DNA of 64,000 nt from Aotearoamyces nothofagi (Eukaryota; Ascomycota; Leotiomycetes; Leotiales; Tympanidaceae): assembly GCA_015345905.1 (NCBI GenBank), contig JADDTR010000008.1, positions 124,001 to 188,000 on the forward strand, read 5' to 3'. Within the stretch, counting starts at the first letter, position 1. Each line of letters begins with the position of its first letter. A program made the translations under genes and the position numbers. This document shows, piece by piece, positions 12,285 through 46,944 of the stretch. The notes under the pieces were generated by a model. The model searched no databases. It saw only the letters and a list, made by a program, of their open reading frames with translations, and had not been told where the DNA came from.

Positions 12285-12735
12285 GACAAAGATACTGGAT
12301 TGCTCGCTGCCATTTAGAATTACCCGAGTCACAGGATGCGTTCTGTACACATTGATGGGAGGAGCGTTACTGTGCCATCCAAAAGTTTTCAAGGCCAGGC
12401 AGAGATCCCCGAAGAATGCTTCTCTTATAGACAAAGATACTAGATTGCTCTCTGCCATTTAGAATTACCCGAGTCGCAGGATGCGTTCTGTACACATTGA
12501 TAGGAGGAGCGTTACTGTGGAACAAGGAAGAGTAGCCATCCAAAGTTTTCAGGGCCAGGCAGAGATCCCCGAAGAATGCTTCTCTTATAGACAAAGATAC
12601 TGGATTGCTCTCTGCCATTTAGAATTACCCGAGTCACAGGATGCGTTCTGTACACATTGATGGGAGGAGCGTTACTGTGCCATCCAAAGTTTTCAAGGCC
12701 AGGCAGAGATCCCCGAAGAATGCTTCTCCCATGGG
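12285..12735. repeat. Three-copy tandem repeat, period ~145 bp
   Basis: The phrase AGAATTACCCGAGTC starts at 12316, 12461 and 12621, so the spacing is 145 and then 160 bp; the second unit carries an extra insert around 12520-12535. Each unit contains GGATGCGTTCTGTACACATT, GGGAGGAGCGTTACTGTG, AGGCCAGGCAGAGATCCCC and GAAGAATGCTTCTC. Copies are nearly identical, so the array is recent or homogenised. On the minus strand the units are open and give repeated peptides (for example SIREAFFGDLCLALKT), but 145 is not a multiple of three, so the frame shifts between units and a repeat protein is unlikely. Confidence 0.9.
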
Positions 12736-21510: not shown

Positions 21511-23880
21511 TCATCGAATGCCCAGGTGCGTCCTGGGCGATCTCAGGCCCTCTTGCGAACTCGCTTCTGGCGGTCTGATTTCCAGAGGACTTATCTCCAC
21601 GGGACTCGGCAGCGTCCACCTGCTGCCCAGCTCCATGCAGGTAACGCCTTCGATGTTCTCTTCCGACCGCTCCTGTGTCTCGGCTGGTAGGGCGGCGGCT
21701 TTCTCATCACCAAACGCGCCGCCCTTTTCTAATTTGGGCCAGCTCAGGCTGCAGACGAACAAGACAGATACCGCGGCCCAGACTACGGCTGCGATAAATG
21801 GGCCGTGCAGTGCGCTTACTACAGCGGCGAGGACCTGGGGCTGCTGGGCTGGGGAGACAGAGGTGCTGATACTGCGTGTGTTCTTGAGGAGTGCGCCGAC
21901 TAGGTCTTTGGGGAGGCCGAGGGAGAGGAGATTGTGCTTGAGAACAGTGGTGAAGATTATAGTCGATATTTGAACAGAGAGTGCACTGGTAAGTGTCAGC
22001 ATGTCAGTAGTATTGGCCGGAGAGGAGGATAGGAGACTTACGGTCCTAAAACCTGACACATCTGGATCAGGCCCTGCGCTCTAACAAGCCCATCACGGCT
22101 CAAAACCGACCGTGGGAATATTAGCATTGATAACCAGACGAGACCAACACCTAACCCAACCAGCACTTGAAACCCAATTGTATTTCCGGTCGTTAAATGT
22201 TGCGGGAGTGTGGTAAAAAGGCCGGCACCAATAGTGAAGAGCGCCGCTCCGAGAAGAGCTATGGGGTTGAAATAAGAGATTTTGAAAGATACGACTGTCC
22301 CTATTACGGCGCCGACGCTCATTAGGCCTGGGAGTACGAGGGTTCGAATCCCGCTTTCCTGGGCTGTGAGGCCTTGCGCTGTCTGCTTATATCAGTACTC
22401 TGAAAATAGACCGTAGATCGATGATTGATTTGGAGGGAATACGAACTTGGAGGAGCAAGGGCATGAAGATGATTATACTCCCTACTCCGGCCATCTCGGA
22501 GAAGATGATCCCACATGTCGCCCAAACATTTCTCTCCGCAATAATGTCCTTTGGAAACAACGCCTCTTCTTTCTTAAACCTCTGCTGTATCAACAACGCG
22601 ACAGCCGCAGCACCTGATAAAACTAGTAGGACAACGACTTTCGCAGCTCCCCAGCCATCCGTTGGCGCAAACTGCAGCCCCAGCAGTAATGCCAGGAGCG
22701 TAATACAAAGCAGCGCCGTCCCGGCAAGATCCAGGCCTTTCACCTTTGCCAGAAAGGACTTCTCGTACTCGCCATGCAGAGGACGAGTCGCGAATCCGCC
22801 GAGACAGGCAAAGAAAACAAGACCGAGCATGGGGAGGTTGATCCAGAAGATCCAGCGCCATCCGATCGTGTCGGTGATGACGCCTCCTATGACAGGGCCG
22901 ATACAGGCGCTCACGCCCAAGACGACCGAGAACGCGCCCAACAGCACGTTCTGCTCCCGCGTCGTGGAGACGAGGGTCATGATTTTTATGCCCCCTAGAG
23001 TCAGGCCCACGGCGCCGATCCCCGACACTGTGCGGCCGGCTATCAGGGCGTCTGAGCTTTGCGATGTTGCTGCTACCAGGGATCCGGCTTGGGTTCTTGT
23101 TAATGGACTTTTCTTATAGCTCAAGATTTCGAGGGGTAGCGCTTACCGATGAAGACGACGACGGATGAGAGATATACAAAGCTGACGTTCCACACTGCGT
23201 AAACCTTACTGAATAGTGGATGGAAGACCGTCTGTGGGAGCAAATATGCCGACGAATACCATCCAATCTGCTGTAAGCTGTTGAAATCAGCTGCAATGGT
23301 GGGGAGGGCGGTGGCTGTTTGGCTAGTTAGCCATCTTTACTTCCTTGCCCAAAGAAGAATATGGATATTCAATACTTGCCAAGAATTGCTTGATCTAGAC
23401 CGACCTTATTAAAACCATAGAAGTCAGTTATATTCCTCTCTCTAACGCCCTCGCATGTTGCGGGTCTATATTCAGCAATCTACATACTGTAAAACACGCC
23501 AACCCAACACCCAGCATGACGAGCGATTTCCTCCAAGCTGGCAACTTTACAATAACATCATTTTCCGGATTCTCTTGCACCGTCAACGTCTGCGCTTCTT
23601 CATCTCCATGTTTCCGAGGTCCTGAGAGCTGGGAGACTGGGATCGGAACCGGGGCGATTCGCGATTGGGCTGCCTCGGCGATAGCTCCATTACGGAGATC
23701 TGGCGCGGTCGATATAGTCAAGAACGGTCTTTTCGGCAGCGAGTGTTCCTGCCACGCTTTCGAAGCCATCCTCTTCAGAAAAACCACACAGTCAGGAAAA
23801 TCATCGAGGAGGAGAGTTCCTCGAGACCGGGAAACGGTACCGCCAGCGCTCGTGCTGGCATCGAGATGCCCTCCAGCCAT
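21511..23880 (-). CDS. MFS transporter of the DHA2 (14-TM drug:H+ antiporter) type, 680 aa
   Basis: Six exons: 23488-23880, 23380-23404, 23147-23314, 22447-23087, 22042-22382 and 21511-21985, all in phase. Exon 2 is a 25-nt microexon and the intron after it (23315-23379) uses a GC donor (GCAAGT). Transporter motifs in order are FT-VGLDQAILATALPTI (first TM, split by introns), IGWYSSAYLLPQTVF, GRTVSGIGAVGL, the antiporter motif C region VLGVSACIGPVIGGVITD, GWRWIFWINLP and LLQTAQGLTAQESGIRTL. About 105-140 polar residues precede TM1; a second ATG at 23769 could be the true start and would give 643 aa. Such proteins export drugs and secondary metabolites at the plasma membrane. It is divergent from the acyltransferase gene 915 bp away, which supports a role in the neighbouring cluster. 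Confidence 0.9.
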
Positions 23881-24794
23881 GGCAGAAGAGACAGTGCCCG
23901 AATAGGTCTAACACGGCACCCAAGCCTGGCTCTCCTTCTCGATGTCTTGGATAGGTCCGCAGGTGGGAGCCGTGGTACGCGCCGCGCGAAGCCACACTGC
24001 GGACCGGGTCTCACTCCAGAATTACCTCAAACTCAAATGTCGGCGACGAAAACTGGGCTGCGGGACTGCTGCGGGGTGGCGCGGCAGGGATCAGAGGCCG
24101 GATTGCACGACGCACGACGATCGCTCGAGGAGGATGGTGATGATGTGTCTGTCTCAAACGCTCGATGTCCATGCCTGCTACACAATTCAGGAAACGGTCA
24201 GTGTCGGCAGCAAATGAGTAATGCTGCTTCAAATACCCACCTACGTCTGCCTCGGGGAATCTAGCCTAGCTTATGACTTACCTAGCTGCGCCGAAGGGGC
24301 TTATCACTTTCTTATAAACTGCGCCATTTTATAGCCTCGGCCTGCTGATCTGTAAGGGAAGAAGTGTTGTACAGAAGGGTCGGACAGGAGTAACGGAGTA
24401 CTGTCTGAGGTCTGAATGACTCGCTCTAAACCTTCCTGGCAGATGTCGGTGAAGGCTTTGAGATAAAAAAAATCGACTCATGTTAAATATACTAATATTA
24501 TAGGAACAGATGAAATCGTCTTGCCCGTTATGGGTGGCCTCTAAGTTTTCGGGTGGCCCGCTGATTACAAGGCTGACACGAGGGCTGTCGTCTTTGCCAA
24601 TGACCGTTAAAGAGCTGTCGCCCTTGATACCTAGTTATACGTTTGCCCTGTTTCGTATGATAACAGAAGAGGCATCACCAATTTGCACGTGGTATCGTAT
24701 CTATCATCCAACAGCACTCATTCTTATTGAGAACCAGAACTCAATCTAGAAGACCACAAAACTATCATTTTATTCCACAGCAGAAACCCTACCA
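23881..24794. promoter_or_regulatory. Shared intergenic region between divergent MFS and acyltransferase genes
   Basis: About 0.9 kb separates the two start codons, so both promoters must lie here. No TATA box or palindromic Zn-cluster site is obvious enough to name. Short frames near 23900-24260 on both strands have no recognisable domain. Confidence 0.45.
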
Positions 24795-26398
24795 ATGGAG
24801 AAAACGAGCAAACCTTATACGATCATCCGCAGAGCAGGTGAGCACATCCCACCGCTAGACTGGACAATAACTTACTTCGTCCAGGACCATTAGAAAGTCT
24901 CTACGGGTTTCAGCACGATGCGGGCTTGGAAGGCAACGTCTCCATAACAGCATCATATGCCCATTCCTCTGGCAAGAAGCTAGACATCGACACCGCCTAC
25001 GCCGCTCTCCACCACGTCGCCAAAGACCATCCCCATGTCGGGTTCATGCAGATCCGCAGAGATAACGGGTCTGGAAGCATTCTTCGCTGGACCGCGCGGC
25101 TGGACAACGTCGACTTCTCCGTCGCAGCGCGCTTCGTCGACGGCCCGGACGTGGACTTGGAGAGGGTCCATGAAGAGGAGGCCAACCACTGGTTTGACTC
25201 TTCAGCCGAAGAGCCGTTCTTCCGCGCTGCCATCGTCAACGGAGAGCATGTCATCCTCACCGGCCACGGGCACCTGGTCTGTGACGGCGTGTCGGCGAAG
25301 GCCTTCCACCAGTCCTTCCTCTCTGCTCTCAACGCCGGCGAGGAGCTGTGGCGGCCAAACGGCGTCCGGGTTTCCTCCAGAACACCGCTCGCTCCGGTCC
25401 CGCACGTGGCGCCGCGGGAGAATCGTGTTCTGGCAATGGCGCCGCGCATACCGACTCTCGTCCTCCTGCTGGTCGTCTTCCTGGATCTCCTCTGGACGGC
25501 GGCGATGAGGCTGATGTATCCGCGGCGGCGCCAGCTCTTCTCTGACGCCACTCACACATGGTACCAGCGACGGAAGGGCGACGAGCTGAAGCGGAAGCGC
25601 CTAAGAGAGTTCAAGAACGGCGAAACTATCCGCTTGCCGGTTACAAAATACAAGACGGTTTCGCTCTCCCCAGACGTCATGGCGGCGCTGCTGGCACTGT
25701 GCAAAGAGAACAAGGTATCATTCAACGCACTCCTTCACACCATCCTCGTCTCTGTTCTAGCTACAGACGTATATCCCAACGCCACGTTCGGCCGCACCAT
25801 GACAGCCGTGAGCTACCGCCGCTTCTCTACTACCTCTGAGAGCGAGCTGGCCGACGAAGCCGGAGTGGTCCAGTGGGCCCAGCGCCTGAAGAAGTTCCGC
25901 GCCATCTACGCGCCGCAAAACGCGCACCGGTCCGGCGCAATGATCTGGAGCGCGACGGCGGCGTACAGGAGATTCGTCGTCCGAGACCTCGGCAACGCGA
26001 GGAAGCACCTGACGTCGCTGAGCTGGCTGAAGCTCGTCGGCCGGACGGACTCGCAGCTCGCAGGGGGCCTCTGGGCGATCGGGTTCCAGCGCCACCACAC
26101 GGTCGACATCACCAATATCGGCGTGCTGGTCCCGGCGGCGACGCCCGTGCAGCAGAGGAGGGCGCAGACGGGGGCGTGGAGGATGACGCACGCGTCCTTC
26201 CACCCCACGGCGACGGAGGGCCAGATCGGGAGCTCGATGAAGATCGGGGCCGTCAGCCTGAAAGGAGGCGGCTCTACCATGGCGCTCGCCTTTGACCCCA
26301 GCGTCTTGCCGGAGGGGTCGGTGCAGGCTTTCAGAGATGCTCTCGAGAGGAGGATGCTTGACTTGTCCGGCATCAAAAACCCCCAGCAAGGAAGATAG
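24795..26398 (+). CDS. Alcohol O-acyltransferase (AATase/ATF family), 518 aa
   Basis: Exon 1 is 24795-24837 (MEKTSKPYTIIRRAG) and exon 2 is 24885-26398, joined across a 47-bp intron (GTGAGC...GTCCAG). The protein begins with the family's N-terminal GPLESLYGFQHDAGLEGNV pattern, has the HxxxDG active-site motif in GHGHLVCDGVSAKAFH at about residue 150, a hydrophobic segment (TLVLLLVVFLDLLW) near 210-225, and KVSFNALLHTILVSVLA, typical of the second domain. Enzymes of this family transfer acetyl or other acyl groups from CoA to alcohols, usually at lipid membranes. GC content is much higher than in flanking DNA. Next to five P450s and an exporter, a role in acylating a hydroxylated metabolite is the natural inference. 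Length is normal and all key residues are present. Confidence 0.85.
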
Positions 26399-27623
26399 AT
26401 AGATAGATGGATGGATTTATTCAAATAATCCTTCCTGGGCGTAGAGCGGTAGGGAAATCAGGAACACGTATTCTCACTATCCACACTACGAGACCCTACC
26501 CCGAGCAGCCCGCAGAGCACAGCACGCTGCCGTAGAGCGTCGCCGTGCCAGGCAACGAAAGTCCAGAAAAACCATTCCCCCCCCCCCCTCCCCCCCCTCC
26601 CACCGAACCCCCCCCTAGCCTCTAGCATACCTAAACACCGAGCGAAGCGCCAGGCCTCTTTCCCCGCAACAAGCCCGCGGAAGACGCCTCTGCCAGACCG
26701 CGCGCCGTCTCCCCCCCCCCCCCCTTCCCACCGCCACCCTCTGCAGGAAGTGACGAAGAAGAAAAAACGTGAGCCTGCTGATCCCCCGCGGTACGGCATG
26801 CGTAGCACGGCCACAGCCACGGCGGGGATGGGATGGGATGGGATGGGATGGGCGCTGTCACATCCCGTAACCTGAACAAGGCCGCGCGCACGCCCAGGGA
26901 GGGCAACCCCGTTTCCTCCCCTGCTGCTGCTGCTGCCGCCGCTCGCACGGCATAGCATGGCATAGCGAGACACCCCACCCCTCCTATCAGCGCCTCCAGC
27001 CCCCCCCCTTTCCGCCAATACCCACATCCATCTCGCCATCCCAGCTCCCAGCTCCTGTACAAGGGCCGGCTTCTGATTCTGATGTTTCTCGGCCTGCGGG
27101 GCTGGGCTGCTGATGGTTATTTGCGCAGTCGGTGGAGGTTTTTGGGTTGGGAAAGGTGGGCGGCGAGGGGTAAGAAGCGGGCGAGATTTCTCTCTCTCGG
27201 CGTGGAATATATAGATAGCGTTGAAGAGAGTATTCCTTCTAGCCTTGCTATAGATCGGACCATGGACTTTGAAAAGTTTATGGTATTCCGTCTGTCATTC
27301 GACGGCTTCGTCAATCACTTCGCTATTCATAGAATTTAGGTATAGACGGCAAACTTTATATTAAGGCCAGACTATAAGCATATCTTTCTGAATGAAGCAA
27401 AGAGCCATTATTCTTCGTACAAAGGTTTTGGATAGAGCAATTTCCGCAACACACTTTTCCACCCTATTATGTTTTCGGTTCAGCTCAAAAATACGCTGCA
27501 GGACGAAGATAACATCCCAAATCCCTGCTCGAGGAAAGTACAATACAGCAATAGCAACGCATAATCAGCCAGTAGTGAATTGCAAGCTACCTTCCGTGCA
27601 TTCTGCCAAACCGTGTCTTCCAT
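26399..27623. other. Intergenic stretch with C-homopolymers
   Basis: Contains C runs near 26578-26602 and 26713-26725, a GGGAT repeat (about 26825-26850) and a CTG/GCTGCC run near 26922-26940. Minus-strand frames of up to 193 codons cross this area but consist of Gly/Arg/Trp-rich compositional sequence. No gene is supported. The last 250 bp is the 3' flank of the RTA1 gene. Confidence 0.5.
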
Positions 27624-28580
27624 TCAAAGTTTCTTCGAAGTCTCTGGCAGACTGGACAGCGATGGTTCTGATCCCGCGGAATTCTTAACCCTCGGCAACA
27701 CGACGGCCGGATCGACAATGTTGTAAATCCCCACGGCAATAATCATCATCACGGCATCAAGAACAAGAAAGAACCTCTCGTGCGTAATCAGGAACCCAGA
27801 CCAGCCCTGCGCTAGTTCAATAGTGCGGTAAATGCTGCGGATATAGATTGTCGTTACCGAAACCGAGACAGTCGCAATAATCAAAAACGTCATCTTCGGC
27901 AGCCCCTCATTTCGTCTATTCCTCCGCAAGAAATCAAGCAGAAGAACTACAAATACCGTCATGGTGGCTAGTTGGAATACTATACCGGCCACCATTGTGA
28001 GTGTACCAGGTCTTGTGTTGCCGTCGACCTTGTTCGCGGCTTCGGATGCTAGGGCGCCGCCGACGGCTTGGACTACCAGAGAGCAGATGTCGCAGGTACA
28101 GAATATGTAGAGGTATTGTGCTGGCTTCAGAATGCTGGACTTCGGACCGGCAAGAGTGATTAGCTGGCCGAGGACAACGTAGGCACCTGCGATGATAAAG
28201 GTGGGAGCGAGAATGAGCGTGGTGATCTGCATCAGGAAGGCGTTTTGGTTGTAGGGACACTTGGAAGACCAGGTTCGGCCTGACCAGCCTATGACTTCGA
28301 CTTTGAGGAGAGTTAGATATGTGATCTGAGGTGGAGGATTGATATTTCAAGCAGGGAACTTACTGAGAGCTCCGAATGCGAAGAGGATGGAAGTTGAACG
28401 TCGTAGTCGGACTGCTTGGATGGTGTGGAGGAGCATGGAGATGAAGAAGAGGATGCAGAAGATCATTCCGGCTGCAAAGGTGGGCGTGTAGCCATAGTTG
28501 TTGCTGATGCCGGGAAGGAGATGTACGCAGCCGACACGGAACTCAAGGATCTCAGCGGGTGTGTATGTTACGTTTGACAT
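27624..28580 (-). CDS. RTA1-family multi-pass membrane protein, 297 aa
   Basis: Exon 1 is 28364-28580 and exon 2 is 27624-28300, joined by a 63-bp intron (GTAAGT...TCAAAG) in phase 1. The spliced junction gives FGALIEVIGWSGR, matching the conserved E-(V/I)-(I/L)-G-Y/W-x-GR of RTA1-like proteins. Further support is NQNAFLMQITTLILAPTF, GAYVVLGQLI, CDICSLVVQAVGG and IYIRSIYRTIELAQGW. Seven membrane segments are visible. RTA1-family proteins (yeast RTA1, RSB1) are linked to sterol-inhibitor resistance and sphingoid base export. Inside this cluster it could give self-protection or lipid handling; that role is inference. The N-terminus has an NVT glycosylation site. Confidence 0.9.
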
Positions 28581-28869
28581 TGTGGGTGACGTGACTGACG
28601 GCGATGTTGCTGTTGTTGTTGAGGGAAGCTTTGAGGAGAAGCGGCAGGAGTGAGGTGGGAGAAGAGAAAGTGGGAGAAGAGAAAGAGAAGGACGAGAACG
28701 AGAGCGAAAACAAAGTAAGCGAGTGTATCAGTAATGCCCACTGGCTTGGTTCTCGTTTTGTGTAACGTGAGGACGAGGACGTTCTCCCTAGAGGAGTGCG
28801 GTCGAAACTCTGGGCGGTGCTTCAGCAGTCGAACAAAGGCGCAGTGAGTAATTGGCGATTCACGGGGTG

Positions 28870-29095
28870 CTCTGCAGCGCTGCTCCCCTGAGAATAGGGA
28901 GTGCTCCCAGCAGCGCTCCCCTAAGCTCCCAAATTATAGTGAATATTCCTAGCACTGCTCCCCTAAGCTCCCCTAAGGTCAGTGAATCCCCCCAGCGCTT
29001 CTCCCCTAAGCTCCCAAATTATAGTGAATATTCCCAGCACAGCTACCCTAAGCACCCCTAAGCACCCCTAAGCACCCCAAGCTCAGTGAATCCTC
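28870..29095. repeat. Degenerate tandem repeats of a GCTCCCCTAAG-type unit
   Basis: GCTCCCCTAAGCTCCC followed by AAATTATAGTGAATATTCC occurs at about 28915 and 29000 with ~85-bp spacing, separated by shorter units ending in CAGTGAATCC. At 29051-29080 the word CCCCTAAGCA is repeated three times with 11-bp spacing. No coding frame is involved. Confidence 0.75.
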
Positions 29096-29443
29096 CTCGC
29101 TGGGCGACCCCCAGCTGCTCAGCATACCAGGCTGTCGTAATTCCAGGGTGCATCCGTACTCTGCATATGCTGCACGGCACACCGCCTGAGCCATTTTGCG
29201 CAATCATTCCTCGATAGTATTTACAAAGGTATATACAGTGTAAGATGCAGTATCTACTTGGGAATACGTGCGAGTCAGCACTTCTAGGCAATCCTATCCT
29301 GAGATGTCGAGATACGTAGAAGTTAGCACCCTATATCAGGCCGTATATCTGGCCTCGACATGATCGAAGCACGTGGATTTTGATAATGACTACGGTGGTG
29401 TAGCATGGATGCGTACGAGTCGGACTAAACAGATGAAATGAAG

Positions 29444-29540
29444 TAGATTGAATAGATCAAACAGATCAAACAGATTAAACAGATCAAATAGATCAAATAG
29501 ATCAAATAGATCAAATAGATCAAATAGATCAAATAGAATA
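29444..29540. repeat. 9-bp minisatellite (ATAGATCAA)n
   Basis: About ten head-to-tail copies of a 9-bp unit, grading from CAGATCAAA at the left to TAGATCAAA at the right. The minus strand gives an Ile-Tyr-Leu repeat in one frame because the unit is three codons, but the frame has no start context or flanking coding features and is taken as non-coding. Confidence 0.9.
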
Positions 29541-31044
29541 CCAGTTGTACCGGTAGAGGACCTGGCAGTTGTGCCTCCGAGTGGCGGCTCTGAGGCGCTG
29601 CCGTTGGAATAAGAAAAAACAGGGGATTAGCGGGATTGGGGTGGAGAAACCCCAGCCGCGACGGGGATCCTCGCTCCCTCACTCGCTCCCCGCTCAGCCG
29701 CTCAGCCGCTCGGCCACAACATTCAACATTCCCCTTGCCAGCGAGACGGCGCCAGCGATGTCTGTCCTGTCCTGTTCTGTTCTACAACTCCTCAGCCCTC
29801 GGCAACCATCCGTGCCAGACGGGCTTCTAAGTACGGACTGGCTGACTAGCCGTGACGATAACATGCGAATAGCACTACCATCGACTTCTCCAAGACCTTG
29901 CCGGCAGGAACATTGCTGCCAGGAGTTGGAGGCTGTAAGTTACCTCCCAGACATGTCCCAGGCGCCTTCAGTCACACATTGAGGTGCATTTACTGACAGA
30001 GCTAGTGTGGCCAGCAAGAACTCTCCGTCTTTTCACGGAATGTCAGGTATGTCGTGGAACTGAACAGTCCTAATGCGGTCTCCTACATCATATCTGTTGC
30101 ATGCACCTTATTACGGAAATACAAAGAATGTTCGAACCATGCTCAGACAGAGCTTAGAGTCAATAGCCTATCTCTAATCTCTATATCAGCCTTGCTTGCA
30201 GATACATGGTTCCAGCTATCAGCCTCGGTCCCTGATGATGGTATACTAGGACAACTCTCCCAAGGACAAGCGTGAACACCATCTTGGCCGAGAGGAGAGT
30301 GCCAGTACGCAGCAGTCTTTGTTTCTGCTATCTCTTATATTTTGGGCGCTTGCCATGCATGCTCTCCATACTCCTGTGCAACGAAGGGCTGTCTTACAAG
30401 TGTTGAGAGGTAGGGGATACAAACCAACCTAAATTACTGTTAAATATGCCGCGTTATAGCTGCAACCGATAACGCTTTTGAACTTCCGTGCATAACACGG
30501 TGTACGACGATCAGGCAATCCCTTGTCAGGATCGACGAAGCCATAAATGATACTACGAAATGCTAACCTCGAAATACATCGTGAACAACGACTAGAGTTG
30601 CTTCGCCTCAGTCCGGGATGTTTACCAGCTATTTAAGGGCGAGAAACAGAGGAAACATGGCTTCTTTAATCCACTGCCTAAATCTATGCTTATCAACAAA
30701 GCTAAATCAATGGCCATAGGAAAAACGCTACGAGGAGCAGAGGAATCTAAGCAAAGGGGGATCTTGCAACTTACAGGATGGGGATACTATACTTGAACAA
30801 GACTATCGCACTGTGGGAACCTCTAAGCCATCTGAGGCTGAGGTGGAACTTGAGATTGTCATACTTGCTACAGAAATGTACAGTACGGGCCCCTCATCGA
30901 GACCTGTCTCATACAGCCGTCTCAATCATGTGTATCATACTCAAAAGAAGGCCACATAATAAGATCAAATACAGCACCATTTCTTGAATCATTTTCACCC
31001 ATTTTTCTTCTTCTATATTTCCTCATTTTATTTTTACTACAACC

Positions 31045-32241
31045 ATGGTCTCTACCCCTTTTGATAACGTTGCGGTTGCTGCCGGCGCCTTTGTCGTCAC
31101 AGGCGTGTTTGACAGGATCGCAAAACATATGCTACAAGAGCGAGTCCTAGAATGGAACTCCAAACCCTTAGCTGTGCAGAGACGGCTGAGCGTAGAAACT
31201 GGCCTCATCCCTATGCGTTGTCTCCTCTTCTACATCACTGCACCACTCGTCTTGAATGCCTTTACATCGATGGAGAGATGGCGGCCTTCTGATACTGATT
31301 CGACCCTCTTGGCATGGTACGTATACATACATATATACCAATATACTATAGATGTACACACCTACATCCATGTACCTACCTATCTCCCCATGCAACCACT
31401 TCTACAGTATCCTAACAACCCGCACAGCTCTATCATGGCCGGCGCCTACCTCTACGACCTCACCGTCTCGCGTACCGACATCCTCTCTCTCATCCACCAC
31501 CTCATGGGTCCCATCCTCGTCATCTGGATCCGGCACAGCTATAGCACCTTCACAGCCACCGACGCTCCAATGCTCCGCCTCCTCTCCCACCTCGTTTTCT
31601 TTGGCGCCGCCATCAGCGGCTCCGCCACATCCGGTCTACTGCTCCACTTCAAGCTCCTCAAGTACGCGCTCCCACCGCCTCGCCTGCGCTCCCACATCAC
31701 CGCCCTCTGCGCCCTGCTCGCGGCCAGCTCCATCCTGTCGTGCTTCTTCGGTGTCGTCTATATCCACGCCTGGTTCGGTCCGCTGTACGCGCACTGGCGC
31801 GTCGCCAGCCTTGCTATCCTGTGCCTGCTTGGCTTCGAGTACTACCTACAGTGGCGCTGGCTATATCGCTTCGTATATCTCGTGCAGAACTTCCAGCCCG
31901 CACGCAAAGCCGCATCACCAAGCCTCAAACCTGACTTGGCCCATCCTCTCCCGCAAGACATGTCCTCGCGCTTCTCGAATCTCAACGCCGTCATGTTCGT
32001 CTGGTCGCTCTCCTTTGCCAGCTTATATGTTCGAGTCGTGTACTCCCTCGTCTTGGAGCTTTCTCTCAAAGCCGGCGAGTCTTTCACCGACGACCACGTG
32101 CCCGAACCCCTGACTAGCTTCGCCGTGCCGCTCGTTGTGCTGCTGGGTGTCGGTATGGAGACGGGGCGGCATGCTATTAGTGGCTTGGAGAGGAAGGCCG
32201 GTGTTGTGGCGCTGATGGGGCTTTGTGATGGGGCTTTGTAA
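31045..32241 (+). CDS. Multi-pass membrane protein, possibly TLC-domain-like, 361 aa
   Basis: Start at 31045 (ACCATGG context). Exon 1 is 31045-31316 and exon 2 is 31428-32241; the intron has donor GTACGT, a CTAAC branch-like element and acceptor CACAG. It is 111 bp and carries no stop, so an unspliced form stays open, but its low-complexity Tyr/His/Ile content argues for splicing. About eight hydrophobic segments are visible, including LIPMRCLLFYITAPLVL, TDILSLIHHLMGPILVIW and SSILSCFFGVVYIHAWFG. A His-His pair in the SLIHHL segment after YLYDLTVSR recalls TRAM/LAG1/CLN8 (TLC) proteins, but I cannot confirm the family. The place between the RTA1 and P450 genes suggests membership of the cluster. 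A lipid-modifying enzyme or an unrecognised membrane cyclase are possibilities only. Confidence 0.65.
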   Translation: MVSTPFDNVAVAAGAFVVTGVFDRIAKHMLQERVLEWNSKPLAVQRRLSVETGLIPMRCLLFYITAPLVLNAFTSMERWRPSDTDSTLLAWYVYIHIYQYTIDVHTYIHVPTYLPMQPLLQYPNNPHSSIMAGAYLYDLTVSRTDILSLIHHLMGPILVIWIRHSYSTFTATDAPMLRLLSHLVFFGAAISGSATSGLLLHFKLLKYALPPPRLRSHITALCALLAASSILSCFFGVVYIHAWFGPLYAHWRVASLAILCLLGFEYYLQWRWLYRFVYLVQNFQPARKAASPSLKPDLAHPLPQDMSSRFSNLNAVMFVWSLSFASLYVRVVYSLVLELSLKAGESFTDDHVPEPLTSFAVPLVVLLGVGMETGRHAISGLERKAGVVALMGLCDGAL

Positions 32242-32584
32242 TGCTTGTTTGGTTGTAGAGGCGGGCGAGGTTGGTATTAGAGTCGGTTGCCTCGACTTTG
32301 CAATTGGTCACCTTGGTATGCGTATGATAGCATGGTCTGAGACTCGGAGACGTGTTAGGCCCGGATCTGTGTCAGGCTTTCTTTTTTCCAGAGACGTATC
32401 TTATACGCGTCGAGAAATAAAAACATTCATTACGATATTTGCCTGTTCAGATCATTCAGACCTCGAGCAGCTCCGTAAACCAGCTTCGAATTCTAAGAAC
32501 TGACTCTTTCCAGAAACCAATCTATTCAGGGCTACACCTCTCTTCTCTAAAATGACACCCCTCCTTCTCCGCCTCCTCGCCATC
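32242..32584. other. Convergent 3' flanks of the membrane-protein and first P450 genes
   Basis: About 340 bp between two convergent stop codons. Both 3' UTRs and poly(A) sites should lie here. Nothing else is visible. Confidence 0.5.
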
Positions 32585-37534: not shown

Positions 37535-38506
37535 ATGCAGGATTTGAGGCATGAGTTGAATTGATGGGTGTTGGAGGATATAGTTATGTTATCACATCAT
37601 AGACTTCACGTTCCTTGGCCACTCTCGTCTGCGCGCTTCTAGGTATAAATCCAGTATGCTTCCCAAAAAGGCAGTTCCACGATTTGTAAACTAGAGTCGC
37701 ATTTATCGATGGAGATAATATTTACGGAAGAATGGCCCCGGTAAATGATGTTCTTCCGGTATAGGAACTAGTCCACCGCCTGCGCTTCGTATCCCGGACC
37801 CCTGTCTGGCTCCGGGAGGATCCGCATCTAAAGCAGCGCCGATCAGCTAGTGCCAGCCACAATATAGTGCCAGCCACAATATTCCAGGACGACAATCCGA
37901 CGATCTATCGGGACAAGAATGCATGCCTAGCGTGGCCTGGCAGGTTTCAGCCGCGAGGTCTGGTCGCACCGAACCGTGCCATAGTCCGAACTGTGAAACC
38001 CCCACGCAAACTCACGATAACGAATTACCGGGACATTGCTACCCTTGCCTGGTATCCCCGCACGCGGTGCACTAGTCGCAGATCGGTGACTCCACACTTC
38101 CACGCATGCAGGCCTTAGCCGACTTGCTAGCCTTGCTAGCCTCTCCAGGCCCTTGTAAGGCTGACGTGAGAGGCGATACGCGCATGGCGCTCTTGCCCAT
38201 TGCCGCGCGCCGTCGACTTCCTCTTGCGGCGGCCGACATGGAGGCGGCAGCCGGTGCGGGACAGCGGGTTCCAGGGCCTTTCAGAGAGCAGCTTCAGGGA
38301 GTCTCAGCGAGCTTCAGGGCATGCATGCCTGGGAGATTAGTGATGCTTAGTGGTTACGGTCGCTGAATGTGCTGCCAGGACCTGCTGGAAGCTGAGCGTT
38401 AGCGGACGGAACCCCCTAGAGGTCCGCAACTGTATGCTGAACGAGAAAGAGAAGACAAAAGGCTGCTGAAGCTGCTGGACGAATATTCCATATCACAGGC
38501 TTCATC
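37535..38506. other. Intergenic stretch with a 17-bp duplication
   Basis: About 970 bp between P450 B and P450 C. A 17-bp unit (TAGTGCCAGCCACAATA) is repeated twice at about 37849-37882. The region 37750-38400 is GC-richer than its surroundings and has frames without recognisable content. The last part must contain the P450 C promoter. Confidence 0.5.
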
Positions 38507-40363
38507 ATGGCGACAACGGTGATTCTAGTTTCTTCAGCAGCTATTGCTATTGCTGGGCGTATTCTTTTCCACGACTCGCTGTATCCCATCATTCTTCTCG
38601 TTTTCGTGAGCTCGGCACTTCTACAGTTGCTCCTCTATCTCGCTTTTCACAGCTTCATCTATCGATGGTTCCTCAGTCCTAGCAAGCATCTCCCCTATCC
38701 AAAGGTGCATCTCTCCAAACGAAACGCCATACTCCAAACTCCAAACTCCACAGCCAATACTGACAGTCTATACTCCAGGACACCAGTTTCTTTCTCGGGA
38801 ACCTCGTCCGTTGTCTGGGCGAGCCATGGGGTTTCCCCTTAGTATCATGGCAGAAATCCGTTCCGGCAACTCAGAGCGGCTTCTATCGAATCTTCATCGG
38901 CCCCTTTGAATACCTCGTTCCCAAAACAGCAAAAGCAGTAGCAGCAATCATGAACAACCATACCGTATACCAAAAACCGCCTGCCGTACGGGACGGGCTC
39001 ATTGCAACTCTAGGCACTGGTCTTGTCAGTTCTGAAGGCGAAACCCACCGCGTAAGTCCCCAATGAATCCATCTTTGACAGACAAATCTACTAAGGAGCC
39101 CATCAGAGACAGAAAAAGCTTCTTACGCCAATCTTCAGTCTCGAGCTCATCAAGCACCTCGTCCCGGAATTCCAGCTCAAGTCTGAAGCCCTGTGCAACA
39201 AGATCTCCCGGATCCTCAAGGAGTCCCCAGATAATTCTGCAATCATCAATATGCATCCCCTCTCTATGGAAGTAACCCTCGACATCATTGGTGTGACGGC
39301 ATTCGGGTTTGATTTCAACAGCCTCGAGAAGCCGGACCAGGAGATCTTGAGAGCCTATCAGGCCATTTTCCCAATCCATAATGATCAGGGCATTATGCAT
39401 GAGTTCTTTTATAACGTGTTGCCGCTATTTGTGTCCCCGCTTTGGTTGCAGGGGCTGCCGTTTGAGCAGAATAGGATGTTTAGGTGGGGAAGGGAGAGGG
39501 TCGAGCTGTTTTGTAGGACGCAGATTGAGAGGAAAAAGAGGGAGATCAGCTTGGATAAGGAAGAGGCCTTGGATTCAAAGGGTTGGTTTGGTAAATCCTA
39601 TGGAATGGAGAGCTACTAATAATTTTCCGAAGATATCCTATCTGCAATGCTCAGGAGTGGCTTGACAGACGAGATTCAACTGAGGGATCATCTCATGACA
39701 ATTCTGGCTGCTGGGTAGGTTTTCCTGCATCAAACCCCTTATCACATTTCTGACACTCCTACTGCCAGCCATGAATCCACGGCCGCCACACTCGTCTGGA
39801 CACTCTTCAAACTCTCCCAAAACCCCTCCAACCAAACCAAACTCCGACACGAAATCCGCACCACCCTCGCATCCTCTCCTTCCCCAATCCTGACCGTCGA
39901 AACCCTCAACTCCATGCGCTACCTCCGCTGCGTCCTCATGGAAGTCCTGCGCCTCTACCCCGCCTTCCCAGGCCTAATCCGCGCACCCACTACCACGAGC
40001 ACCATCTCCGACCTCGCCATCCACGCCTCCACACCCGTCATCGTAAGTCCGTACGCCATCAACCGCTCCCGCGATCTCTGGGGCGACGACGCCGACGAGT
40101 TCAGGGTGGAGAGGTGGGAGCGGGCGCATACGGGCGGTGCGGCGAGTCCGTATGCTTTCATGACGTTCTCGATGGGCCCGAGGATCTGTATCGGCAAGGA
40201 GTTTGCGGTGAATAGTCTGAAGGCTATGGTTGTGGCGTTGGTGGCGAGGTTTGGGTTTGCGGAGGAGAGGCAGGGCTGGGCTCCCGAGGTGCAGAAGGGG
40301 ACGTCGATGAAACCGAGGGGCGGGATGAGGCTGAGGGTTACGTTGTTGGACGATTTTGAATGA
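38507..40363 (+). CDS. Cytochrome P450 monooxygenase C, 540 aa
   Basis: Five exons: 38507-38704, 38779-39051, 39107-39581, 39633-39714 and 39769-40363, with intron phases 0, 0, 1, 2 at the same protein sites as P450 A and D. Membrane anchor followed by LSPSKHLPYPK. Motifs: I helix AAGHESTAATLVW, K helix MEVLRLYP, VERW in place of PERW, and haem loop FSMGPRICIG. The third intron uses a weak GTTGGT donor and a short acceptor (CCGAAG), chosen because the junction restores DILSAMLRSGLTDE, conserved among the paralogues. It appears complete. Convergent with the BAHD acyltransferase gene. Oxidation of the same pathway's intermediates is inferred. Confidence 0.9.
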
Positions 40364-40587
40364 GGTGCTGTTCTGTTACATTTTTGAATGGTCTTATTCT
40401 GTTTCATTCATTCATTAATACTTTAGGGTTAGGGTTATACTTTGTTCTATTTGATATTTGATATTATATTATGTTATAATTAGATTAGCTGCTGTGATTA
40501 TAGACGCCGAACGACCTTGATGAAAGACAGGAATGAGTCGAATGCATAGCTAGCTAGACACTACTATCCAATTTAGAAGAAAGCATA
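40364..40587. other. Convergent 3' flanks with a short telomere-like repeat
   Basis: A 224-bp gap between convergent stops. It includes TTAGGGTTAGGGTTA at 40423-40437, two and a half units of the usual fungal telomere repeat, followed by AT-rich sequence. It is too short to mean more than a chance or a small interstitial insertion. Confidence 0.5.
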
Positions 40588-42153
40588 TCACTCAAGACCT
40601 CTCTCGGGCCACGTAACATAGCGCAACCAAACCGGATCCCTCTTCAAAACCGCCATACTCTCCCCCGACAAATCCAGCAACACCTCCAGCCCACCCGGAT
40701 ACCCGCCCTCCTCAATCCCCTCCACATCCCTCCTCCCATACGCCGGCAACACGACGAAGATCCCGTCATAAGCGCTCCTCGCCGGCGTCCGGACGCGCCG
40801 AAACCGGCCCACGCCCAGCCCCAGCGGCTCTTCCGCCCCATACATGTTCTCCCAGCTCGAGCTGAAAAGATCCGGCCCGCAGAACGAGCGCAGCTTCACC
40901 CGCGCATCCGTAGCCCGCTTCTGCGACGCCACGAAGCGCACCGCGGTGCGGACGGTGGAGGCGGAGAAGGCGTTGACGGCGGTGCGGACCTGCAGCGCCG
41001 TGGGCGCGAGGGCGGCGGGGGAGAGGAGCGAGGCGGTTGGGGACGTAGGGAAGGCGTAGTACGTCGCGTTCCCGAAGTAATCAGCAGGAACCACGGGGTC
41101 AAGCTTGCGCCGGAAATCAACGGCCATCAGCAGCCGCGAGGACCCCTTGGGCGCGGCAGCGAGGAAGCGCGCGCGCGTCACGCTGCTCCAGAGCAGTGCC
41201 GTGACGGCGTCGTTGGTGGAGAAGGGCGCGGGTGTTTGGGCTGCGATGTCCTGCTTCAGCAGCGCGAGAGAGGCGGGGGAGAGGTGGAAGATCAGGCTCT
41301 GGTGCGGGGGGAGGGAGAGGAGGAGGCGGAGGAGGGCGGCCAGGTAGGTGAGCAGCGTTATGAGGAGGGGGTGGAAGTCCGGGACACCGATCATGATGCG
41401 GCGGCCGTTGGGGACGAGGTCGAAATCGGGATGGGACGGCGGCGCGGGTGCTGCATCAGGGTCGGCCTCTTGGAGAGCCAGGATCTGTTCCTTGCAGCCG
41501 CAGCTGTCTGGGTGCGGATCTCGAATCTTCTCGATCCTGTTCCCGGCTTCAGCTTTGACTCCTTCGCTGGCCAGGTCCCGCGCGCGCCGGAACCACTCCT
41601 CCACGAACCGCGCGAAGCCATTCCCATCGACCAAGAAATGGTGCTTGCTCGCCAGCACCACAAACCCGCCCTGCACAAACGTGATCTGCGCCCAGAACGC
41701 CCTCGCCCCCCTCGTCAAGTCCTCCGCGACGAGGTCGACGCCCGGCGCGAACACGTCTCTCGGCAGCGCGTAGGTTGGGAACTGGAGATCGGGGCGCAGG
41801 GATGCGAAGCTGACGTCTGGGCGGTGCGCGACGGTGAGTGCGACGGAGGAGGTCTTGGTGATGCGGGTGGAGAGGCGGCTGGTGTCGGGGTGGGACAGGA
41901 TGGTGCTGAGCAGCGAGGGCTGGGAGGAGCAAGGGGATTGGATGAATGTTGAGAGACTGGTCTTGAGGCGGTGCACGAGGTCGGCTTGGTAGATGGAGGG
42001 CTTGCAGGGCTCGGTGCTGGTGTCGTAGATGTAGAGGAAGGTACTGTTGATGGGGGGCATTAAACCGTCGACGATGGTGAGGGGAAGTTCTTGCTCGAAC
42101 GGGGTTTCGGGCTGCAGAAAATAGGTATGTGATGTCCTGGGCTTGGAATCCAT
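40588..42153 (-). CDS. BAHD-type acyltransferase (trichothecene 3-O-acetyltransferase-like), 521 aa
   Basis: A single-exon frame from ATG at 42153. N-terminal PLTIVDGLMPPINSTFLYIY fits the opening strand of the fungal transferase family. The catalytic HxxxD is present as KHHFLVDGNGFARFVEEW at about residue 175, the central region has FSTNDAVTALLWSSVTRAR, and MAVDFRRKLDPVVPADYFGNAT corresponds to the conserved D-x-R/F-G-N block. The C-terminal structural DFGWG motif is not seen; the corresponding stretch reads SSWENMYGAEEPLGLGVGRF. Such enzymes transfer acyl groups from CoA to hydroxyl or amine groups. With the AATase gene at 24.8 kb this gives two unrelated acyltransferases in one cluster. 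Gene GC is high. Confidence 0.85.
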   Translation of the reverse strand: MDSKPRTSHTYFLQPETPFEQELPLTIVDGLMPPINSTFLYIYDTSTEPCKPSIYQADLVHRLKTSLSTFIQSPCSSQPSLLSTILSHPDTSRLSTRITKTSSVALTVAHRPDVSFASLRPDLQFPTYALPRDVFAPGVDLVAEDLTRGARAFWAQITFVQGGFVVLASKHHFLVDGNGFARFVEEWFRRARDLASEGVKAEAGNRIEKIRDPHPDSCGCKEQILALQEADPDAAPAPPSHPDFDLVPNGRRIMIGVPDFHPLLITLLTYLAALLRLLLSLPPHQSLIFHLSPASLALLKQDIAAQTPAPFSTNDAVTALLWSSVTRARFLAAAPKGSSRLLMAVDFRRKLDPVVPADYFGNATYYAFPTSPTASLLSPAALAPTALQVRTAVNAFSASTVRTAVRFVASQKRATDARVKLRSFCGPDLFSSSWENMYGAEEPLGLGVGRFRRVRTPARSAYDGIFVVLPAYGRRDVEGIEEGGYPGGLEVLLDLSGESMAVLKRDPVWLRYVTWPERGLE

Positions 42154-42696
42154 TTTGAAATTATGTTAGGCCTGGGGTTAGGGAGGGACTGGAGGGTGGA
42201 GGGTGGTGGGGAGTGAGGCATTTATATAACACAGAGGTCATAGCTGCCAGATAGTGCAGTACATGTAGTTTATTTTGGCTACGTCTGGTAAGACACGGCC
42301 CAATTAAATATCTAGATCAAGATTTTCTATTATCTTGCTTGTGTAACTACATAACTGTACTTCTTAAAGTATAATTATCAACTCGTCATGAAATAAGAAA
42401 GTGATCCATCATCATCGAGAAAATTGCTATTCCATTTATCTAAAATCCTACTTCTATTTATATCTCAAATATTATTCTATGGAGATATACAAATGATAGG
42501 CAAATTTAGGTCGCTCCAAGAAACTAAAATATTCCCTACAAGTCAGTGAAAAGTGCCTGTTAATAATGGATAATAGTTCATGGTCGTATATTCTATTAAA
42601 CCAAATAAAGAAAGGGGAAAAAATGCTTCCATTTATCCGCGAGAGATCCCAAGATTATTACAATATAACCCTCCGAGTGTCCCATCACATCTCCCT
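42154..42696. other. AT-rich intergenic stretch between the BAHD and P450 D genes
   Basis: About 540 bp, AT-rich, holding the BAHD promoter and the 3' flank of P450 D. No repeat or gene is visible. Confidence 0.5.
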
Positions 42697-44495
42697 CTAC
42701 CGTACAACACGACTAACTCTCAGCTTCATCCCGCCAACCGGCGATAAAGTCGACAACTTATTCTTCTCAATCCTCTCATAGCCCTCCGCAACGGCAAAAT
42801 CAAACCTCTGTACCACCGCCACAAGCATAGCCTTAATACTTCTCAGCGCAAACTCCTTGCCAATACACGCCTTATAGCCATGCGAGAACGTCATGAAAGC
42901 ATAACTCGTATCGACATTCCGCGCCGCCTCCCATCGCTCGGGCCTGAACACATCCGCGTCTGCGCCCCAGAGTTTCTTGGAGCGATTGGCGGCGTAGAAG
43001 CTGATCATGAGCCGCGTTCCGGCTGCGATCGGCTGGTTGTGGAGGAGGGTTGGAGCGAGGGTGTTGCGTCGCGTGGAGGCGAAGACGGGGTAGAGACGGA
43101 GGGTTTCCATGACTACGGCGTGGAGGTATGGCATTGTGTCCATTAGTTCGGGGGTTAGATTGGGGGATGCATGTGTGGTTTTTCGGACTTCGTTGTTGAG
43201 TTGAGTTTGGATTTCGCGGTTGTGGGCAAGTTCGTAAAGGGTCCACATGAGCGTAAGTGCAGTCGATTCATGGCTATAGATGTGTCAGTAGAGGCTTCTC
43301 ACTATATATCTCACTTACTTGCCCTGCTGCAAGAAATGTCATTAGATGGTCCGTTAGCTCACTCTCGTCAGTCAAGCCGCCCTTGATCAAGGCAGCTAAG
43401 ATATCTGGAATTGCCGTGTTAGTAGCTTCCACGGAGGTGTTTGAGAATAGCACCTTTTCCATCGATAGCATTTTCAGCCGTCTTCTCACTAAGTATTCTC
43501 TCCCTTATCCTCTCCCTACAAAACGCTCTAGCATCTCTCCGCCCTTTCAAATACGTCCTATTCCTCTTAAAAGGCAGCTTATGGACAATGAACGGAGACA
43601 GGAAATACTCGAGTAAACCAAAAGAGATATTCGCAAGCTTCTGTCTATCCTCGAGAGGAAATAAGGCTTCGTAAGACTCGAGAAAGTCTTGGTGCGGGTT
43701 GTTGATACTGTCGAGGTCGTAGTTGAAAGTTGCGAGTGCTATCATGTCTATCGTTGCATGCATTGCCAAGGGAGCTATATCTAGAACCGTTGAGTCGTTC
43801 CCTGATTCGTCCAACATGCTGTTCATTTTCTCCTGGAGTATCTTCGCTTTTGCCCAGAAGATAGGAACCAGAGTCCGAATATGGCGAGAGCTGAACGTCG
43901 GGCCTATCAATAATCTCTGCCTCTGTAATCAAGCTCATCAGCTTTCCAATCCGTATCAGAATACAAAGATCGCTACCTTGTGCAGATCACCGTCTGATGC
44001 AAGAAGTCCAAACCCCACCGTTCTTGATGCCATGTGGTAAAAGTAATCAGGCATATTAAACCTCCCCGACTTTCCAAACACCGCTGATAGTGCCGCGGGG
44101 CTCGATGGGACTACATATTCGAACGGGCCGGCCGTGACGCGATAGATGTCTGGATAGTCCAGTTCTTCGTCCCAACCCACCTGCGGCGCACCCCATGGCG
44201 AGCCTAAGATTTGAAAAAGATGGCCCAGGAGAAGACTCCCACCCTGCTAACTAATCAGTCGGGATTACCAGAGCAAAGGTATGGCTGGAAGGTGACGTAC
44301 TTTCGGTGTGGGAAGGTGGCGTAGTGGGCTGAGATACGGACGGTAGATGAAGATCTGATACGCGCAATAGAGCAATATTTCAACGGCGAAGACTCCTACA
44401 GAGACATATGGCAACGACGACAGCGAAGAAATTTTCCAGAAATTCAGTGCAGTTGCACTCAAGATTGCAGTCAGCAACAAGACAGCAATCGCCAT
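42697..44495 (-). CDS. Cytochrome P450 monooxygenase D, 529 aa, with Lys in the haem loop
   Basis: Five exons: 44301-44495, 43977-44243, 43454-43922, 43323-43404 and 42697-43273; phases 0, 0, 1, 2 as in A and C. The last intron (43274-43322) must use a GC donor (GCAAGT), since the obvious GTAAGT four bases on gives a premature stop. Anchor then LSPLRHLPTPK. Motifs: I helix AAGHESTALTLMW, K helix METLRLYP, FRPERW, haem loop FSHGYKACIG. The proximal Cys is kept, but the Arg usually two residues before it (FxxGxRxC) is Lys. Closest in the window to P450 A (shared FPLEDRQKLAN / FPLEDKQKFAN and LRLYPVFASTRR). Probably ER-bound; substrate unknown. Confidence 0.9.
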
Positions 44496-45185
44496 AATCG
44501 CGACTTGTGCTCCCGTCTAGAAGAGCCGTCGTCTGCCAGCCCTGACAACACGGCGATTTAAGAATTGATAATTCTCCACCCACAACCCAGCAGCGCCCAT
44601 ATAACCAATATGAAAATTATATCCAGAATTTCCATTCGGGGGGTTCTTATTCAAGCTTTTCGCTAAATCCTTTTATGCAGCTTATATGCTGGAGGTGCGA
44701 CCCGACCCGGGCTTTAGTGCTGACTCGGGTTCAGATGACTTGCATGAAGCTGTGCGGCGGTAACGCAGTGTTTTCATTGCGTGATATTAGCCGCAGACGT
44801 ACATATTGGATGCTTCTCAGCTAGATGTCTTATATTTTGCTCGTTTGAGGTGTGACGGTCACCTCGGTGTTACAGTGGCTGTGCCGCTGCGACGTGTGAC
44901 GGTGTCGGCTGCGGATGGATGAGTGCTAACTCGGGTCTGGGACATGTGGGCGTCTTAGTATCTTATCCTGTTGTATTACGGTTTATCGGTCGTGGTGGTC
45001 TAGGGATATCTAAAAGAGTAGCTGAGGATGGGCTGGAGCTTTGTGGTTGGCGAAGTATCACACACAACCAATGTAGGCATTCCGTAAGTCTCGGGGGACT
45101 AGCTAAGCAGACATTCCGCGGCAAGACGCGGTTTGAAAATTAAACTGGTAATATCCTAGATTCTAAAAGCGTATGCCCATTCTTA
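44496..45185. other. Intergenic stretch between P450 D and P450 E
   Basis: About 690 bp containing the P450 D promoter and the 3' flank of P450 E. No gene, repeat or clear element is seen. Confidence 0.5.
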
Positions 45186-46944
45186 CTACCACTCACACTC
45201 CAGTGGTGTAATTCTCAACGACATCCCCCCCTGCGATTCATACCTCCCAGTCGTCTGCATCACAGGTTCCCTCCCCTCCTCGACCCTAAACTCAAACTTT
45301 GCTACCAGTAATATCAACAGCGGCTTAATGCTGTTCAATGCCAATTCTTTCCCAATGCAGATCCTGGGCCCTTGCGAAAAGCTAAGCATGTTGTAGGCGC
45401 TCGTAGCGCCTCCGTCATATTTTGCCTGCCAGCGCTCTGGTATGAATTCACTGGCATTAGATCCCCAATAAGCTGGTGAGCGGTTCACCGCTGGCGGGCT
45501 GAGAATCACGGTTGTGCCTTTGGGGATTGTGGTGCCTTCGATGATGGCGTCTTTGATTGGCTGGCGCATCATGGTGTCGATTGCTGGGTAGAGGCGGAGA
45601 GTTTCCATGACCACGCCGCGCAGGTAAGTCATTGATTCGAGGAGGGCGGATGTGGGTTTCCCAGAGACAGGGTCGAGAGTTTGGTGGATCTCGTCGCGGA
45701 GGCGTGCTTGCATGGCTGGTTCTTTAGCTAGAGTGTATAATGCCCATTCAATTGTGCTCGCGGATGGTGAAAAACTAAGAGATTGTCAGTCTTTGCCCCG
45801 ATATGGTGAACTCATTTTTGTCTTACCCTGCTGCTAGAAAGGTAATGAGATGATCTACTAGCTCTGATTCATCAGATATCCCACTTGCAATCAAGTATGA
45901 CATGATATTGTCTGTAGATAAAGTCAGATGATTATAGATGCGAGACAGAAATTCAGAATTACCCTGCTCAAGCGGCTCTGCTTCGACTTCCTCTTTCTCA
46001 AGAGTTGACTGTGCTTGAATCCTATCAGCGCAAGTCTTCCTTAGAAAAAGTCTAGCTTCAAAAACTTCTCTATTCTTCTTTATAGGAGCTCTCTGTAGTA
46101 ACTTTGGCGAGACAAACAGAGGAAGAATATCGAAATAGATGACCTCAAACAAATTATCGCGTTTTGAAACAGTTGGAAACATGACATGAATGGCGTTTAC
46201 AATAGGCTGGTCCGGATTGTTGACGCTATCCAGCTCAATTCCCATCACGGTGTTGCTGATGATATCAATCATCGTGTGCACCAGCAGTGGCCTAATATTT
46301 AATACAACGGGAGACTGGCTGCCAGTGACGCTTTGCAGCTTCTCTGTTAATGTCAGAGAAAGTGCCCAAGTACGCTGCAGCAGACTTCGAATCCGAGATG
46401 TCGTGAAAACCGGGTTGAGAAGCCTTCTTTGCCGGCGATGAACCTCATCGTGAGTTGTAACAAGCCCTTGACCAAGTCTCAAGGCCACAATTTGTTGAAG
46501 CTGCTCTGGCTTTTGAAAGAGAGCCGGATTGCTCAGCACTGCAGCGATAGCTTTGGGACTGGTTGGGATGATGTAGTCAAATGGTCCAACGAAGATTCGG
46601 TAGAAGTGCTCATGAACGACAGATTTTTGCCATCTGATTGGTGGCGCTCCTCGAACTTCTGTGAGAAGAGACCAAGCATGTCCAAATAATGGAGTCGTTT
46701 CCTGCGATGTTCAGCAACTTACGCTGCAGATATTTCTGCTTTCAAATACCTTTGGATACGGCACTCTCTTCAGGGGACCCAAAAGCCAACGCTGGACGTA
46801 AGCATAGAAGAAGAAATTAAGGGCCAACGAGATGATAGCAAGCGGGATGAATAATTGGTAGAAAGAAATGTATGATCGTTCGAAGTGTCTAGTGAGATAA
46901 AGTGAAGCTGCGAGCGACATCCAAAACAACGAATGGGCGCTCAT
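45186..46944 (-). CDS. Cytochrome P450 monooxygenase E, 535 aa, atypical I helix
   Basis: Four exons: 46750-46944, 45963-46701, 45827-45911 and 45186-45774, phases 0, 1, 2. The intron present in A, C and D after the (L/T)H(R/K) site is absent here. The 51-bp intron at 45912-45962 has no stop, but splicing it restores the paralogue alignment (DNIMSYLIASGISDESELVDH). Anchor is followed by LGPLKRVPYPK. K helix METLRLYP, FIPERW and haem loop FSQGPRICIG are normal. The I helix reads FLAAGFSPSASTIEW where the paralogues have AAGHESTALTLMW, so the acidic residue is Ser and the Thr is Ser. This is the pair that delivers protons to bound oxygen, so the enzyme may have unusual chemistry. Confidence 0.88.

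Follow-up and report, generated by a model that had tools for sequence, protein, structure and literature searches.

Fungal glycolipid clusters, such as those for sophorolipid and mannosylerythritol lipid, take fatty acids from primary metabolism as their starting material and carry acyltransferase and exporter genes. Here we describe a ten-gene locus of the ascomycete Aotearoamyces nothofagi, rich in cytochrome P450s, that lies in a 64,000-nucleotide stretch (the window; bases 124001-188000 of the 873-kb contig C8, in a genome of 25.5 Mb and 55 contigs). We read it, with a probability of roughly 0.5, as a specialised-metabolite cluster that would oxidise, acylate and export a lipid-like precursor from primary metabolism. 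A described point of comparison is the demethoxyviridin (vid) cluster of Nodulisporium sp., which comprises 19 genes, six of them for P450s, and whose gene table contains no cyclase (PMC5943271). The authors of that report remark that lanosterol-derived products break the rule of clustering with their own cyclase (PMC5943271). Other relevant systems involve membrane proteins without recognisable domains. PaxA is a membrane protein of 356 amino acids (aa) encoded in two exons and without domain hits; its deletion abolishes paxilline, and paxilline has been made in A. oryzae from six other pax genes without PaxA (PMC3760044). Fungal membrane cyclases of the Pyr4 family likewise escape domain detection, and of the 1050 clusters reported to contain a Pyr4 homologue, a count that includes single-gene ones, 690 had no further core gene (PMC11109268).

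The A. nothofagi locus and vid are alike in being P450-rich and in showing no cyclase (for vid, none in the gene table; here, no cyclase-profile match on the contig); the three vid P450s that share a single closest homologue and the two vid transporter genes add to the likeness (PMC5943271). Differences are that vid encodes a Baeyer-Villiger enzyme, dehydrogenases, Bet v1-like proteins and an esterase, types unmatched in the nine cluster proteins scanned against Pfam, and that Table 1 of the vid report lists no acyltransferase (PMC5943271), against two at our locus. A furanosteroid cluster of the vid type was rejected on the same scan, which covered nine proteins (all but P450D) and gave no match to a Baeyer-Villiger monooxygenase, a dehydrogenase or an esterase. 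We take the resemblance to be one of logic, not of membership. Compared with the glycolipid clusters, the locus shows no glycosyltransferase in the Pfam scan of nine proteins.

Ten gene models lie across positions 21,511-46,944, each with a start and a stop codon and no internal stops: an MFS exporter, two HxxxDG acyltransferases (one of the BAHD family, the other here called AcT1), an RTA1 protein, a multi-pass membrane protein (TMP) and five P450s (Table 1). The models were predicted from sequence by a splice-aware finder, for which long frames from the region served as the training set, and then refined in local runs and by hand; the area modelled was the window with 60 kb of left and 80 kb of right flank. 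Pfam scanning was confined to the window and used an MFS protein cut to 596 aa and earlier models of P450A, P450C and P450E; P450D was assigned by a genome family search. The finder returned no further gene model between the ten. Three pairs of neighbours have divergent orientation (MFS/AcT1, RTA1/TMP and P450B/P450A), and the cluster ends on the right at 46,944 with the P450E start codon, as first annotated. Gene content and intron signals give the region a fungal look. The initial annotation had proposed ten genes at this place with no unrelated housekeeping gene between them and an oxidise-acylate-export composition lacking a scaffold enzyme, all of which was borne out. Its interpretation is upheld in part: the composition stands, and we judge its three options (a scaffold enzyme at another place, an existing lipid or sterol as the molecule modified, or the membrane protein as core enzyme) to be the right ones, but its label for one acyltransferase does not hold.

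Profiles for ketoacyl synthase, PF19086 terpene synthase, polyprenyl synthase, squalene-hopene or oxidosqualene cyclase (SHC/OSC), UbiA and the nonribosomal peptide synthetase (NRPS) condensation domain found no match on the contig, in searches that read exons separately and to which families without a profile are invisible. All six match elsewhere in the genome. By these six profiles, with DMATS (PF11991) and TRI5 (PF06330) not searched, the locus is not a backbone-bearing cluster with a polyketide synthase (PKS), NRPS, terpene synthase, UbiA or similar enzyme inside. The earlier remark that no PKS, NRPS, terpene synthase or UbiA is seen agrees with this outcome. It had also been asked whether a terpene synthase or PKS sits just across the AT-rich island to the left; the PF19086 and ketoacyl synthase profiles place none there or elsewhere on the contig.

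The P450s set this locus apart from the rest of the genome. All five belong to PF00067, as first counted, and the alignment shows intact ExxR and FxxGxxxCxG heme motifs. A genome search in which 92 of 94 candidates were scored gave 97 exon matches that merge into 59 places, both counts being lower bounds. Five of the 59 fall within 15 kb here, forming the largest P450 group in the genome; any other group (gaps <10 kb) has at most two members. This grouping exceeds chance (Poisson estimate ~3.5e-6), a figure tempered by tandem duplication, which accounts for four of the five.

That duplication is apparent from a tree of 41 rows and 189 columns, built from the five cluster P450s and 36 fragments that represent 36 of the 54 other merged places, chosen for coverage of the C-terminal half. 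P450B, C, D and E group in a single clade (ultrafast bootstrap 99; Shimodaira-Hasegawa-like approximate likelihood ratio test, SH-aLRT, 91) with the branching E,(C,(B,D)), and its nearest P450 is L046 on contig C3 (97/97). P450A stands outside this clade and joins it only in a wider supported set (96/92) with L057, L054 and L079. Pairwise identity is 54% between B and D, 43-44% between C and either of them, and 35-39% between E and B, C or D; P450A reaches 23-24% with any other cluster P450. P450B, C and D also have a common five-exon plan, with a first exon of 195-198 nt and a fourth exon of 82 nt in all three. The four share a common origin and arose by local duplication. We take the heme motif of L054 and L079 to recall CYP52-type fatty-acid hydroxylases, which is a lead only and no test of a lipid substrate. 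The last intron of P450D is of the GC-AG type (GCAAGT donor).

P450E departs from its relatives at the active site. Its I-helix reads AGFSPS against AGHEST in the sister P450s, and the alignment gives it neither the acid nor the alcohol of an ordinary monooxygenase. A missing pair is uncommon but not unique, because, counted by eye, 4 of 32 other readable genome P450s lack the alcohol, and three of these the acid as well. P450s without the acid-alcohol pair can be isomerases or dehydratases, for example thromboxane and prostacyclin synthases. P450E may be non-oxygenating, acting as an isomerase- or dehydratase-type enzyme instead of an oxygenase. The best PDB matches of its C-terminal exon are a putative P450 and CYP3A and CYP4B types, which do not indicate a substrate.

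Both acyltransferases carry the HxxxDG motif, and their initial description as two unrelated acyltransferases stands for the BAHD enzyme. This protein falls within PF02458 (75.4 bits against a cut-off of 22.7; motif HFLVDG), with GLGVG at the place of a DFGWG-type motif, which is not clear. Its PDB matches are BAHD enzymes; trichothecene 3-O-acetyltransferase is among them, outscored by plant hydroxycinnamoyl transferases. The name AATase, given initially to AcT1, is not sustained (PF07247, 12.8 bits against a cut-off of 22). The top Pfam match of AcT1 is Condensation (23.8 bits, cut-off 30.6; 2.2e-05), followed by PapA_C (0.02) and AATase (0.044); because all fall below cut-off, we call it only HxxxDG acyltransferase-like. 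AcT1 has no PDB match at E ≤ 1, and its relatives in the same genome lie on contig C1 (30% identity) and, more weakly, on C13 (26% over 182 aa). The refined MFS model has six exons, no internal stop and an uncertain start codon; it includes a 25-nt microexon adjoining a GC-AG intron (GCAAGT donor).

Together these genes would suit a pathway that tailors a lipid-like starting molecule drawn from primary metabolism, whether a fatty-acyl or sphingoid chain, a sterol or some other isoprenoid. Stepwise oxidation at several positions would fall to P450A and the duplicated P450B, C, D and E. The two acyltransferases, AcT1 and BAHD, would place acyl groups onto the hydroxyls, and the MFS protein, perhaps with RTA1, would export the product or protect the cell. 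TMP would contribute as a membrane enzyme or protein. We consider lipid tailoring the most likely reading because of the analogy with vid, a P450-rich, lanosterol-derived pathway without a cyclase in its gene table. Several observations weigh against it. No sequence feature fixes the substrate, and the unusual I-helix of P450E suits a simple oxidation chain less well. The G+C content of the cluster genes is uneven (48-65%), so they may differ in age. A regulator is also hard to find: as the initial annotation had noted, no Zn-cluster gene is in sight, the nearest scored Zn_clus match on the contig lying at 51.2 kb, ~94 kb left of the cluster, and the next at 622 kb (150 of 175 candidates scored), while frames >60 aa across 204 kb contain no Zn2Cys6 pattern. 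The six-mer TTACAA occurs in 7 of 8 cluster promoter stretches (23881-47785) against 5 of 48 others and might be a shared promoter element, but it is a lead only, and its strength is borderline (p = 2.5e-5 uncorrected, ~0.05 over the 1963 six-mers seen). The P450E stretch in this comparison began ~40 bases upstream of the start codon adopted in the later model, and no CGG-type element stood out among the cluster promoters.

The same inventory could serve detoxification or xenobiotic resistance, with P450s oxidising, acyltransferases conjugating, and MFS and RTA1 proteins exporting a foreign hydrophobic compound. The MFS and RTA1 families are both associated with drug or lipid export. The trichothecene acetyltransferase among the BAHD matches points the same way, as do the missing scaffold profiles on the contig and the lack of a nearby Zn-cluster match. 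Four paralogous P450s with diverged active sites would better suit stepwise elaboration of one scaffold, however, and two acyltransferases and TMP would be unusual in a resistance locus. We regard this alternative as unlikely.

TMP itself might supply the scaffold. The initial annotation had recognised a membrane protein at 31-32 kb; it is indeed multi-pass and without a family match, and the model now includes a 111-nt intron (31,317-31,427) with canonical signals (GTACGT...CTAAC...CACAG). The protein has nine hydrophobic stretches. It matches no Pfam profile among those listed at E ≤ 10 (HMMER filters drop most weak matches) and no PDB chain at E ≤ 10; its own genome yields only TMP itself at E ≤ 1, and a pattern scan of bacterial and archaeal genomes found no relative. 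An AlphaFold2 prediction from the unspliced frame, with no alignment as input, did not reach a usable fold (predicted local distance difference test, pLDDT, 43.8). By eye we likened its YLYD...LIHH pattern to TLC proteins, a resemblance that our tests did not support. TMP has no match to TLC (TRAM-LAG1-CLN8, PF03798) at E ≤ 10 and is absent from the nine TLC exon matches of the genome. Its hhalign probability against two genome TLC proteins was 0.1, under that of the reversed sequence and of the best of 40 class-preserving shuffles, in a test that is weak with a single query sequence and two templates.

On this account TMP would be a membrane-bound cyclase or transferase whose family no profile represents; its substrate would be a ubiquitous polyprenyl or acyl compound, and its product would be tailored by the rest of the cluster. 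Its place inside the cluster and its lack of Pfam, PDB and paralogue matches are in keeping with such a role. So is the Pyr4-family precedent, in which a domainless membrane protein lies next to tailoring genes, often with no other core gene (PMC11109268). By description, the only level at which we compared them, TMP is close to PaxA, at 361 against 356 aa, with two exons each, several membrane passes and no domain hits, whereas six transmembrane helices are reported for PaxA (PMC3760044), against nine hydrophobic stretches in TMP. PaxB, which we take as Pyr4-type and likewise compared by description only, has 243 aa (PMC3760044). The pax cluster, moreover, includes a geranylgeranyl diphosphate synthase and a prenyl transferase, and our contig has no polyprenyl-synthase match (PMC3760044). 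The role of PaxA itself is unclear and it is not shown to be a core enzyme, paxilline having been rebuilt without it (PMC3760044). With the poor fold prediction and the unsupported TLC likeness added, we hold a scaffold-forming TMP to be distinctly unlikely. The bolder proposal, that TMP founds a new fungal family of membrane-bound scaffold-forming enzymes whose lipid or polyprenyl skeleton is then elaborated by the P450s (P450E as a non-oxygenating member) and two acyltransferases, is more doubtful still.

The gene for a scaffold enzyme could also lie at another genomic location, or in a piece of sequence lost at the assembly join to the left. The genome offers two PF19086 terpene synthase places (contigs C35 and C4) and two SHC/OSC-type cyclases (C16 and C32), but no gene links any of these to the cluster. 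Judged by eye, the C16 cyclase (L040) resembles the squalene-hopene type and carries a DVDD motif; the nearest listed P450 place on that contig is >300 kb off. As for the join, it splits the AT-rich left flank and so bears on the left linkage of the cluster. Two exact 218-bp copies flank a single N at 18731, as if the assembler had joined contig ends that overlap; with an exact overlap, little or no sequence need be missing there. The 218-bp piece is, however, a member of a repeat family, with seven diverged copies (74-89% identity) elsewhere in the genome. No N was found in the cluster itself (21,511-46,944). A second similar join, with a 236-bp overlap and one N, lies ~34 kb left of the window start. 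We find a separate scaffold enzyme improbable, whether unlinked or lost at the join. Least probable of all is that the locus is no functional unit and that its P450s expanded locally beside genes that are there by chance. The local duplication of four P450s and the lack of a demonstrated shared regulator motif would fit this, but P450A, two acyltransferases, the MFS and RTA1 proteins and TMP all fall within these 25 kb, uninterrupted by any other gene model.

To the left, Pfam identifies a dienelactone hydrolase, a Dabb protein and an Asp f 4-like protein, followed by the AT-rich stretch. The initial annotation called this a transposable-element island, but no transposon was shown (transposon genes were not searched for); it is AT-rich, has a dinucleotide bias resembling that of repeat-induced point mutation, and is divided by the join. 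On the right lie an IBR protein and a Gpr1/Fun34 transporter, and six of the ten flank frames scanned have a Pfam match. Two RBR-like gene regions (by eye; 47530-48516 and 54138-55263) bracket the Gpr1/Fun34/YaaH gene; frame 47530-48183 gives the IBR match, and frames 48244-48516 and 54628-55263 have no Pfam match. Tandem repeats occur at 12374-12679 (160-bp unit x1.9, 96%) and 60179-60363 (40-bp unit x4.6, 95%).

Table 1 Positions in the window of the cluster genes and the assembly join.
Feature	Description	Position	Strand	Evidence
Assembly join	Two exact 218-bp AT-rich copies, single N at 18731; outside cluster	18513..18949	no strand	
MFS exporter		21511..23880	-	Pfam MFS_1 2.7e-31 (earlier model, 596 aa)
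AcT1	HxxxDG acyltransferase-like, 518 aa	24795..26398	+	Sub-cut-off Pfam matches, HLVCDG motif
RTA1	RTA1-like membrane protein, 293 aa	27624..28580	-	Pfam RTA1 2.4e-63
TMP	Multi-pass membrane protein, 361 aa, two exons	31045..32241	+	No family match
P450B	Five exons, 589 aa	32585..34654	-	Pfam p450 1.5e-63
P450A	Five exons, 564 aa	35606..37534	+	Pfam p450 3.9e-46 (earlier model); one exon found by hand
P450C	Five exons, 540 aa	38507..40363	+	Pfam p450 3.5e-60 (earlier model)
BAHD	BAHD acyltransferase, single exon, 521 aa	40588..42153	-	Pfam Transferase 4.8e-21
P450D	Five exons, 530 aa	42697..44495	-	Genome family search
P450E	Three exons, 552 aa	45186..46944	-	Pfam p450 1.2e-69 (earlier model)

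Clusters without a recognised scaffold enzyme escape genome miners that start from core genes. The A. nothofagi cluster combines a compact layout and open frames with the richest P450 group of its genome, which makes it well suited to asking whether such loci tailor primary lipids or conceal core enzymes of their own.

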